Source: Agathobaculum massiliense (lineage in GTDB: Bacteria > Bacillota > Clostridia > Oscillospirales > Butyricicoccaceae). Taken from it: DNA of 64,000 bases. The first letter of the stretch is position 1, and each line of letters starts with the position of its first letter. The notes below the pieces were generated by a model. That model made no database searches, was not told the origin of the DNA, and was given only the letters and a program-made list of their open reading frames with translations. The stretch covers positions 1,116,001 to 1,180,000 of the forward strand of contig NZ_OMPN01000001.1 of assembly GCF_900291975.1 (NCBI RefSeq). Direction: 5' to 3'. This document shows, piece after piece, positions 11,243 through 38,012 of this stretch. A program made the translations under genes and the position numbers.

Positions 11243-11251
11243 GAGTTTGCA

Positions 11252-11334
11252 AGCAAGGGTGCCGTGATGAGCGGCTGAGAGGGCGAGAGCCTAACCTTTT
11301 GAACCTGTTGGTTAACACCATCGTAGGGAAGCTG
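11252..11334 (+). ncRNA. TPP riboswitch (THI element)
   Basis: The conserved THI blocks are present in order: GGGTGCC, CTGAGAGGGCGAGAGCC, TTTTGAACCTG, and GTTAACACCATCGTAGGGAAG. This aptamer binds thiamine pyrophosphate in the nascent mRNA. It sits between a strong promoter and a terminator hairpin at 11355-11397, so ligand binding should favour termination and shut off thiS onward. Confidence 0.95.
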
Positions 11335-11354
11335 TCGCATCGCAGAACATTCAA

Positions 11355-35143: not shown

Positions 35144-35992
35144 TTAGTAAGTCGCCACCACGGCGCCCTTATAGGTTTCCTCGATGAACTGCTTGACCGT
35201 ATCGCTCTGCAGCGCCTCGGCCAGCGCCTGAATTTTTTCGCTGTCCTCGTCGCCGCTGCGGCAGGCGATCACGTTGACGTATACCTGCGCATACTCCGGA
35301 TTTTCCGTGATGAGCGAGTCCTCCTTGGCGTTCAGGTCGGCCTGCAGGGCATAGTTGCCGTTGATGACCGCAAGGTCAACGTCCTGCAGCGAACGCGGGA
35401 GCTGCTCCGCGGCGATCTCCTGGATATCCAGGTTCTTCGGGTTTTCCACGATGTCCAGCTTGGTCGCGTCCGAGGTCGGGTCGATCCCGTCCTTAAGCTT
35501 AATCAGACCCGCGTCCTGCAGAAGCAGCAGCGCGCGCGTCTCGTTGGAGCCATCGTTCGGCACGGCGATGGTAGCGCCGTCCGCCACTTCGTCCAGCGTC
35601 GCGGTCTTGCCCGGGTAAATGCCGAACGGCTCATAGTGCATCTCGATCGCGGGGACCAGGTCGCCGTTGTTCTCCTTATTGAAGTTGTTCAGGTACGGGA
35701 TGTGCTGGAAATAGTTCGCGTCCAGTTCGCCCTCAACCAGCGCAGTGTTCGGGGTCACATAGTCGGTGAACTCCACCACTTCGAGCGTGTAGCCCGCCTC
35801 GGCCAGCACGTCCTTTGCCGCCTTCAGGATCTCCGCATGGGGCGTGGGCGACGCGCCGACCGTAATGGTCTTTGCCGCGTCATCCGATGCGCCGCCGTTA
35901 TCCGCGTCCTGGTCCTGGCTGTTCCCGCCGCAGGCTGCAAGCGCTGTCAGGCACAGCGCGCCCGCAAGCAAAGCTGCGATTTTCTTTTTCAT
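35144..35992 (-). CDS. metQ: Methionine ABC transporter substrate-binding lipoprotein MetQ
   Basis: A 282-residue lipoprotein with lipobox LAAC (Cys21). The binding domain has VGASPTPHAEIL, YFQHIPYLNNF and VPNDGSNETRALLLLQDAGLI, typical of the NlpA/MetQ family. It captures methionine outside the cell. Last gene of metNIQ, 92 bp after metI. Confidence 0.93.
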   Translation of the reverse strand: MKKKIAALLAGALCLTALAACGGNSQDQDADNGGASDDAAKTITVGASPTPHAEILKAAKDVLAEAGYTLEVVEFTDYVTPNTALVEGELDANYFQHIPYLNNFNKENNGDLVPAIEMHYEPFGIYPGKTATLDEVADGATIAVPNDGSNETRALLLLQDAGLIKLKDGIDPTSDATKLDIVENPKNLDIQEIAAEQLPRSLQDVDLAVINGNYALQADLNAKEDSLITENPEYAQVYVNVIACRSGDEDSEKIQALAEALQSDTVKQFIEETYKGAVVATY

Positions 35993-36084: not shown

Positions 36085-36738
36085 TTACCGGTTGCGCTTA
36101 TCCAGCCGGCGCGCCAGCCAAAGGCCAGCCTCCTGGAAGATCTGCACGACCACGACAATGATGATCACCGCAACCAGCATAATATCGAACTGATAGCGGT
36201 TATAGCCATAGGTGACTGCCACTGCGCCCAGGCCGCCGCCGCCGATAAAGCCGGCCATCGCGGAATAGCCCAGGATAGTGACGACCGAGATCGCGCCGCC
36301 GACCATGAGCGAGGGCTTGGCCTCCGGCACAAGCACCTTCCACACGATCTGCCACGGGCTTGCCCCCATAGACTGCGCGGCCTCGATCACGCCAAACGGC
36401 ACCTCCTTGATGGAGGATTCTACCATGCGCGCCACATAGGGGGCGGCCGCCATGGTCAGCGGCACGATCATCGCGGTCGTGCCAATCGAGGAGCCTGTGA
36501 TCGCGCGCGTCATCGGCGTAATCATAACGCCCAGGATCAGGAACGGCACCGAGCGCAGAATATTGACAACCACGCCCAGCACGGTGTTGAGTACCGGAAT
36601 CGGGCGGATGCCGCCCTTATCGCTCACCACCAGCAGCAGGCCGACCGGCAGCCCGATCGCATAGGACACCACGGTGGATACCGCGACCATGTACAAGGTT
36701 TCCCACAGGGCCTGCGCCCAGAAATCAGGTGAAAGCAT
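36085..36738 (-). CDS. metI: Methionine ABC transporter permease MetI
   Basis: A 217-residue permease with five membrane helices and the EAA loop (SSIKEVPFGVIEAAQSMGASPWQI). It overlaps the end of metN by 14 bp, with GGAGGGCGACGC upstream. Confidence 0.93.
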   Translation of the reverse strand: MLSPDFWAQALWETLYMVAVSTVVSYAIGLPVGLLLVVSDKGGIRPIPVLNTVLGVVVNILRSVPFLILGVMITPMTRAITGSSIGTTAMIVPLTMAAAPYVARMVESSIKEVPFGVIEAAQSMGASPWQIVWKVLVPEAKPSLMVGGAISVVTILGYSAMAGFIGGGGLGAVAVTYGYNRYQFDIMLVAVIIIVVVVQIFQEAGLWLARRLDKRNR

Positions 36739-37744
36739 GCGCGTCGCCCTCCTCTACATGCACGTTCTGCGTTTCCAGATAGGCCAGCGCCCGCTTTGCC
36801 GCGCGTTCATCCTCCGGCAACTGCAGGATCATCTGGCCATATGCCTTCCCGTCGATATCCTTGGTGTCCGCAAACATGATATTGACCGGCGCCTTGCATT
36901 CCAGCACCATGTTGGATACCACCGGCTCAAACGACGAGTTTCCATCAAACACGATGCGGCAGTAATGCCTGCCCGTGGCCAGGCGCTCCCGCCTGCCATC
37001 CGGATAGATCAACTGCTTGGCCATCGCGGACTGCGGGCGGGTGAACACCCGATCGACCGTGCCGACCTCTGCGATGCGGCTGGAATCGATGATCGCCACG
37101 CGCTGACAGATCTCCTCGATGACCGCCATCTCATGCGTGATGACCACAATCGTGATGCCGAGCGTCTGATTGATCTCCTTAAGCAGCGCGAGGATGGAGC
37201 GCGTCGTCGTCGGGTCCAGCGCGCTGGTCGCCTCGTCGCAGAGCAGGATCTTAGGGTTGGTCGCCAAGGCTCGCGCGATGGCCACGCGCTGCTGCTGGCC
37301 GCCGGAAAGCTGGGATGGGTAATTACCCGCGCGGTCGCTCAGGCCGACGATATCGAGCAGTTCGCGCGCCCGCTTTTCCGCCTCCGCCTTACCCGTCCCC
37401 GCGATTTCCAACGGGAAGCAGATATTTTGCAGCGCGGTGCGCTGTTGCAGCAGGTTGAACTGCTGGAAGATCATGCCCATGGAGCGGCGCGCCTGCAGCA
37501 GCTCCTTTTTGGAAAGCGCCCCCAGCTCCTGCCCGTCCACCGTGACCGTACCCTCGGTCGGCTTTTCCAGAAAATTGATGCACCGCACCAGCGTGGATTT
37601 GCCCGCGCCGGACAGGCCGATGATGCCAAATATCTCGCCGCGTCTGATGTCCAGGCTGACACCGTCAAGCGCCACAACCGTACCCGCGCGCCCGCGGAAC
37701 GTCTTGTTCAGGTTTTGGATTCGCACAATAACATCCTGTTCCAA
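36725..37744 (-). CDS. metN: Methionine ABC transporter ATPase MetN with NIL domain
   Basis: A 339-residue ATPase: Walker [10 protein letters not shown], signature [15 protein letters not shown], Walker [13 protein letters not shown] and H-loop THEM. The C-terminal about 90 residues form the NIL domain that senses internal methionine and inhibits transport. The start is TTG at 37744 behind GGGGGA. First structural gene after the leader ORF and hairpin at 37766-37933. Confidence 0.93.
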
Positions 37745-37765
37745 ACCTTATTCCCCCTTGTTTCA

Positions 37766-37798
37766 AAATAAAAGCGGAAAGCAGTCCTGCTTTCCGCT
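37766..37798 (-). terminator. Attenuator-like terminator in the metNIQ leader
   Basis: On the minus strand AGCGGAAAGCAG-GA-CTGCTTTCCGCT is followed by TTTATTTT, 22 bp before metN. A perfect 12-bp stem. Confidence 0.75.
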
Positions 37799-37864
37799 CG
37801 CTTTCCATCTGAACCGCATCGCGCCGCATGACAAATACGGCCCGCTTGCAGCATAACAGCCCTG

Positions 37865-37933
37865 TTACGGCTGTATTGCAGAAAAACGAGCAAAACCGCA
37901 CATCATGCACATGGACATTCGCAGTGCCAGCAT
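37865..37933 (-). CDS. Methionine/cysteine-rich leader peptide upstream of metNIQ
   Basis: A 22-codon ORF starting MLALRMSMCMMC. It has five Met codons (1, 6, 8, 10, 11) and two Cys (9, 12) in its first twelve positions. AAAAGGAGGAGACCGTA gives a strong ribosome site and a consensus promoter lies about 60 bp upstream. The stop lies in a second small hairpin (ACAGCC/GGGCTGT). The terminator hairpin starts about 67 bp after the stop. The layout is that of a ribosome-mediated attenuation leader sensing charged Met-tRNA or Cys-tRNA. No SAM riboswitch or T-box blocks are visible. Confidence 0.65.
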   Translation of the reverse strand: MLALRMSMCMMCGFARFSAIQP

Positions 37934-37983
37934 TACGGTCTCCTCCTTTTCCTACAATTTCTATAGTATATTGCTTGGTTATT

Positions 37984-38012
37984 AGTGTACCGCTCTTTGC
38001 GGGATTTGTCAA
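37984..38012 (-). promoter_or_regulatory. Promoter of the metNIQ transcript
   Basis: Minus strand: TTGACA (38012-38007), 17 bp, TACACT (37989-37984). Confidence 0.85.

Follow-up and report, generated by a model that had tools for sequence, protein, structure and literature searches.

The leader upstream of metNIQ in the window (the whole 64,000-nucleotide stretch of Agathobaculum DNA that was analysed) is probably, at about four chances in five, a ribosome-mediated transcription attenuator of that operon, one that would sense the charging of Met-tRNA and perhaps of Cys-tRNA. Methionine transport in Firmicutes is usually put down to SAM riboswitches or T-boxes, and leader-peptide control has rarely been described in this bacterial branch; a third, ribosome-read sensor at metN would mean that sensors are easily swapped at one gene. 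Attenuation of this kind had been suggested by a sequence-only reading of the window, and the follow-up supports it, as close relatives conserve the leader-peptide ORF together with its Met and Cys codons, the RNA can adopt a competing antiterminator fold and the leader matches no SAM riboswitch or T-box.

The leader is read from the minus strand. On one side of it lies a gene that by eye looks alanine-dehydrogenase-like, and on the other are three genes that we named from their best NCBIfam matches, all of which score under the model cut-offs: metN, encoding the ATP-binding subunit of the methionine ABC transporter (36725..37744, minus strand; TIGR02314), metI, encoding the permease (36085..36738, minus strand; PRK10782, slightly under cut-off) and metQ, encoding the substrate-binding lipoprotein (35144..35992, minus strand; PRK11063). 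Rfam searches of the leader with E values as high as 10 returned no SAM riboswitch or T-box, as the sequence-only reading had judged by eye, and the two matches that they did return, both to eukaryotic families, are chance. Elsewhere in the genome, the sole RF00162 match precedes a metK-like gene, which we take to be metK itself, and the 11 T-box matches, 5 of them above cut-off, all fall outside the window. The window does hold a TPP riboswitch at 11245-11347 (plus strand), above the Rfam cut-off, and a BLAST search of plasmids gave no match.

Comparison of the sequences yields the elements of the leader, their conservation and the possibility of mutually exclusive pairings, and all coordinates that follow are on the minus strand. 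The promoter, TTGACA-17-TACACT (37984..38012; -35 at 38012-38007, a 17-nt spacer and -10 at 37989-37984), scores 10 of 12 matches to the consensus, and CTTGACAAA of the promoter region is invariant in the 22 aligned leaders; the promoter match by itself is weak proof because the 1.5-kb region holds 3 promoter-like sites where 1.7 are expected. The Shine-Dalgarno (SD) region GUAGGAAAAGGAGGAGACCGU (37935..37955) is the ribosome-binding site of the leader ORF and carries GGAGG at 37946-37942, with the ATG at 37933 eight bases further on; as segment 1 it pairs with segment 2 in a protector hairpin, 1:2. The ORF itself, MLALRMSMCMMCGFARFSAIQP (37865..37933), has 22 codons, with Met at codons 1, 6, 8, 10 and 11 and Cys at 9 and 12, such that the control codons 6-12 (37898..37918) read Met, Ser, Met, Cys, Met, Met, Cys; ATGTGYATGATGTGY occurs once in the 64 kb and is absent from all 100 shuffles. 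Codons 13-19, up to the first two bases of 19, make up segment 2, GGUUUUGCUCGUUUUUCUGC (37878..37897), the partner of segment 1 or segment 3, and a 6-bp hairpin, ACAGCC/GGCUGU (37856..37874), lies over the stop codon. Pre-terminator segment 3, GGAAAGCGAGCGGAAAGCAG (37787..37806), pairs either with segment 2, forming the antiterminator, or with segment 4, forming the intrinsic terminator (37765..37799 with its T-rich tract; 12-bp stem at 37799-37772). Promoter, strong ribosome site, ORF with five Met and two Cys codons in its first twelve and hairpin over the stop all agree with the sequence-only reading, and so do the 12-bp stem and T-rich tract before metN, except in their distance from the gene: 20 bases separate the end of the tract (37765) from the TTG start of metN (37744), where that reading gave 22. 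Taken whole, the leader RNA is more stable than 200 of 200 shuffles (z = -5.8). A further small hairpin, CGGGCCG...CAUGCGG (37824..37844), whose alignment columns are invariant or nearly so in the genus, takes no part in 1:2, 2:3 or 3:4 and is perhaps an RNA polymerase pause site.

From this layout we infer coupling, stalling, timing, the direction of the response, the amino acid sensed and action in vivo. A ribosome would load on the leader ORF once the SD is transcribed and, if charged Met-tRNA (perhaps Cys-tRNA) were scarce, would wait at codons 6-10, where its leading edge would spare segment 2 while its body would part segment 2 from segment 1. Segment 2 could then pair with segment 3, just ahead of and into the 5' arm of the terminator, and with 2:3 formed the terminator would come too late and metNIQ would be transcribed. 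With Met and Cys plentiful, the ribosome would cover segment 2, leaving segment 3 free, and 3:4 would end transcription. Were the ORF not translated at all, segment 1 would pair with segment 2 and the terminator would again form.

Within the genus, a DNA search located the leader in 23 of 25 Agathobaculum genomes, the window's genome counted, and metN is present in the same 23, both being absent from G002 and G016. The alignments hold 22 of these 23 leaders, L023 having been omitted because its peptide is identical to that of L022, with L032 and L033 omitted as fragments. In one genome (G003), leader L011 lies near one contig end while metN with a partial, altered leader (L070) lies at another, probably reflecting a split locus or a second copy. 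The ORF is open in all 22 aligned leaders at 21-27 codons, its length changing by whole codons, and the Met/Cys run is retained apart from a partial loss in one lineage. With the AR of ARFSA as anchor, the positions of codons 8, 9, 11 and 12 hold Met or Cys in 21 of 22 leaders and that of codon 10 does so in 20, and codon 6 is other than Met in 6; the exceptional lineage (L022/L023; genomes G024 and G011) has a Cys-free run that retains two Met. Silent third positions vary at Arg5 (CGA, CGG and CGT; Arg in 20/22) and at Ala19 (GCA, GCC and GCG; Ala in 22/22). Frame +1 hits a stop within 0-9 codons in every aligned leader and frame +2 is stop-free across the aligned leader in 14 of 22, so the ORF frame is not alone in being open, and codon statistics alone are insufficient to prove translation because RNA constraints bear on the core codons as well.

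Each of the three pairings is predicted in all 22 leaders, with segment 2 engaging either the ORF's own SD or segment 3 and with segments 3 and 4 making the terminator. For 1:2, 92.5% of cells are paired and five pairs are altered on both sides, with 0 of 500 shuffles matching either figure; this covariation is nevertheless weak because versions slid by 1-3 columns still show 1-4 pairs altered on both sides. In a duplex control, between 0 and 89 of 1000 shuffled versions of segment 1 equalled the real 1:2. The antiterminator 2:3 is paired in 97.7% of cells, compared with 50-60% when slid by 1-3 columns, yet compensatory two-sided changes in it are absent from the 22 leaders and its one-sided changes show no excess over shuffles. 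Its overlap with the terminator stem relies partly on weak G-U/A-U pairs, and when segment 3 was shuffled outside that stem, 3-215 of 1000 versions (32 for the window) equalled the real pairing. The terminator stem, 3:4, is paired in 97.9% of cells across the 22 leaders. Lastly, all 22 leaders have a predicted hairpin at the end of the ORF, which lies over the stop in 20 of them and next to it in the other two, L022 and L024. Its shape is kept while its sequence is not, as CG, GC, UA and GU pairs share the same 5' positions. Between 0 and 22 of 300 shuffles equal its stability; these counts, taken from the individual predicted folds, are biased in its favour. Of the structures compared, the stop hairpin and 1:2 thus have the best support as RNA, and 2:3 draws its support from conservation and complementarity.

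Where the ribosome stands determines, in our models, which of these pairings prevails. With only the RNA ahead of the ribosome allowed to fold and the 3' arm of the terminator still absent (the cotranscriptional model), the mean probability of the 2:3 core was 0.96 with codons 2-8 in the A site, 0.95 at codon 9 and 0.91 at codon 10, then 0.62 at codon 11, 0.02 at codon 12 and 0 later. The extension of 2:3 into the terminator's 5' arm, which by this modelling should be the part that blocks the terminator, had probabilities of 0.81-0.89 at codons 2-8, 0.68 at 9, 0.34 at 10 and 0 from 11. Because of these probabilities, Met6, Met8, Cys9 and partly Met10 fall within the stalling window and Met11 and Cys12 fall just past it. 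When segment 2 was masked or the ribosome absent, 3:4 reached a probability of 1.00 in 22/22 leaders, a longer model of the same states giving 0.89 for the window, and with the whole leader present the window's terminator formed at all ribosome positions tried (0.82-0.89). With segment 2 free at equilibrium, the antiterminator was the more stable in 5 of the 22 leaders (L012, L014, L015, L018 and L022) and the terminator-forced fold in the other 17, and the 2:3 core is able to coexist with the terminator; antitermination, if real, must therefore be kinetic. The competing fold, which the sequence-only reading had left without a proposal, exists but is not the favoured one at equilibrium. Allowing helices to reach across the ribosome brings 1:2 back at certain stall codons, 8 and 11 among them. 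Ribosome-coupled attenuation requires close coupling, which is reported to be weak in Bacillus subtilis, and coupling has been disputed for Firmicutes since B. subtilis was reported uncoupled. The attenuator proposed here predicts that coupling in these Clostridia is tight enough to let a stalled ribosome guide RNA polymerase.

Which amino acid would be read is the question on which the closest alternative turns, namely that the same attenuator senses Cys, or Cys together with Met, with MetNIQ answering a general shortage of sulfur amino acids. This overlaps the main reading, and we count it as a sizeable minority share within the odds of that reading. The positions of Cys9 and Cys12 are conserved like those of Met8 and Met11 (21/22 each), both Cys are kept in L021 and L024 though Met10 is lost from both (and Met8 from L024), and leaders of other Clostridia mix Met with Cys; however, Cys12 lies past the modelled stalling window, L022 and L023 have a run without Cys and with two Met, and the downstream genes resemble methionine-transport genes.

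Other explanations would do without codon hunger altogether. It is unlikely that the leader works as an undescribed riboswitch, or as an RNA bound by a protein, in which the ORF is a passenger: such an RNA would fit the conserved hairpin CGGGCCG...GCGG and the conserved shape of the stop-codon hairpin, but much of the RNA conservation is explained by 1:2, 2:3 and 3:4, the Rfam searches of the leader gave nothing beyond the two chance matches, and Met/Cys codons recur in other metN leaders. A nascent peptide might instead stall the ribosome with bound Met or SAM, in the way that TnaC arrests with tryptophan, and the near-invariant ARFSA beside the Met/Cys run speaks for this; that stretch is also segment 2, though, where 1:2 and 2:3 pairing limits the choice of bases, and the number and placing of Met and Cys differ among genera as codon-based sensing predicts, which leaves peptide arrest with a slightly smaller chance still. 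Least probable of all is that the ORF encodes a functional small protein, for instance a metal-binding peptide using Cys and Met, that precedes metNIQ by chance, since a conserved C-x-M-C motif, recurring as M-C-x-M-C-G in other Clostridia, has to be weighed against the unbroken association with metN within the genus, the terminator and alternative folds, different Met/Cys-rich peptides at the same place elsewhere and no NCBIfam match for the leader peptide at E up to 1.

Ribosome-mediated attenuators of the trp/his type, such as E. coli trpL, combine a leader peptide with segments 1-4. The metN leader resembles them in its control codons, segments 1-4, default terminator and an untranslated state that would terminate through 1:2, and differs in carrying Met and Cys codons, in belonging to Clostridia, in having a transporter gene downstream and in taking segment 1 from the SD of the leader ORF instead of from the ORF. 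By its sequence it has the SD-led ORF with the operon's control codons and the intrinsic terminator of such an attenuator; conservation and modelling add the protector 1:2, with modest covariation, and the modelling adds suitably placed control codons (6-9, partly 10). T-box and SAM-I leaders serve the same gene, metN, in other clostridial loci, whereas this leader has no such match. The mechanism is known in kind, and the leader would be a variant of it in the amino acids that it reads, in its host group, in the gene that it precedes and in having the SD as segment 1.

A clostridial leader-peptide attenuator for Met or for Cys was not among the matches listed in a search of the open literature, which extends neither to subscription journals nor to preprints. 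The nearest precedent, judging from the portions of the paper available, is metL of Streptomyces lividans TK24, a predicted leader peptide before metNIQ with the sequence GARCMCRRMCAF (PMC8079986). It precedes the same operon and likewise mixes Cys and Met, a likeness judged by eye only, and it differs, as far as those portions go, in its leaderless start, in the absence of a typical intrinsic terminator according to its authors and in its phylum (PMC8079986). The uORFC-8-2 motif before cysS in Rhodobacterales, predicted to be a ribosome-mediated attenuator in the sections available of a 2021 motif survey, shares Cys codons and a terminator with our leader but has tandem Cys only, precedes an aminoacyl-tRNA synthetase gene and belongs to Alphaproteobacteria (PMC8632094). 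Ordinary His leader peptides before hisS/hisZ in Bacilli, described in the accessible text of a 2010 terminator survey, are likewise predicted leader peptides in place of a T-box in Firmicutes, differing in the amino acid (histidine), the gene and the class (PMC2965389). A 2005 actinobacterial survey, in its available part, describes Cys leader peptides and gives no conserved RNA structures before methionine operons, and the main text of a 2019 motif survey contains none of the terms methionine, cysteine and metN.

When 87 genomes of the family were searched with a model built on the SD and ORF sequence, only one genome outside Agathobaculum matched at E < 1e-4 (G035, 4.4e-6; the next was G027 at 5.9e-4). 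In G035, which belongs to another genus of the family, the match precedes metN and encodes MMMQCAMMCRMSAMMCGFFQFHTKHSSMCVR, and the leader consists of an SD, a 31-codon ORF with 9 Met and 4 Cys and then a terminator-like hairpin with a T run. Two weaker matches were read as well: that in G003 is the metN copy at a contig end and that in G006 is the start of an ABC ATPase gene, which we rejected.

A wider comparison took in 80 named metN loci, 77 of which have at least 200 upstream bases (L111, L168 and L182 were dropped). The filter, chosen after the peptides were known, asked for an SD-led ORF whose Met/Cys residues number four or more past the start and make up 20% or more of it. In 37 of these 77 loci such an ORF precedes metN; none of the 77 reverse strands passed, and 16 of 1540 shuffles did. 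The Agathobaculum group contributed 17 of its 18 loci, the one miss (L129) having a shortened run, and 20 of 59 loci outside that group also passed. Nineteen of those 20 ORFs are alike, following M(R/K)TS...MC..MCGMC..M with exceptions such as L155, and this MRTS form was found in Herbinix and relatives, its Cys codons alternating between TGC and TGT. The twentieth, MKNFAMAMCGMMMCGSMSFGHGERVRPWVLA, lies about 216 bases before the metN match of Christensenella sp. UBA5394 (L189) and is unlike the other forms. By eye, the MRTS and Agathobaculum peptides have little in common except an M-C-x-M-C-G core, and their sequences may descend from a common leader, through one deep origin, or from several. 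Among 18 MRTS loci, pairing between the beginning of the ORF and the surroundings of its stop outdoes shuffles in 17, while 2:3 beats shuffles in only 3 (L133 was left out of this test, its terminator not matching the search string), which makes attenuation by the MRTS form a lead, short of demonstration.

An MRTS peptide profile, short and insensitive, found no true member in 391 class genomes; its one match (E 0.008) is antisense inside another gene and so is chance, and the MRTS form is either narrow or outside the reach of such a profile. A survey of the order covered 40 of 43 further out-of-genus metN matches (all but G141, G211 and G245), and a looser ORF filter was passed by 2 of the 40 upstream stretches, clearly by L109 and doubtfully by L078, with a T-box in 3 of the 40. 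L109 comes from another family of the order (G193, contig C99), where the leader ORF MTICGFVMMMAMFMCGMMMMPRFVLPAGSSCRMG stands before a second metN-like gene and is accompanied by a strong terminator-like hairpin. In the 60 of 61 named non-genus loci scanned for riboswitches (L182 was left out), T-boxes numbered 7 and SAM riboswitches 2, none of them at an ORF-positive locus, and about half of the 60 have, by these criteria, neither a Met/Cys-rich ORF nor a T-box or SAM riboswitch. Our broadest suggestion, to which we give rather less than even odds, is a widespread and undescribed class in Clostridia that has divergent forms (Agathobaculum, MRTS, Christensenella and a Met-rich one in another family) and senses Met and Cys jointly, the Agathobaculum SD acting as an anti-antiterminator.

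Lastly, a tRNA-Pro(agg) gene lies upstream of nine MRTS-type leaders (L149, L151, L153, L155, L164, L171, L173, L176 and L180), preceded in 8 of the 9 by tRNA-Thr(ggt), the stretch of L164 starting just before the Pro gene; these tRNA genes are probably mere neighbours.
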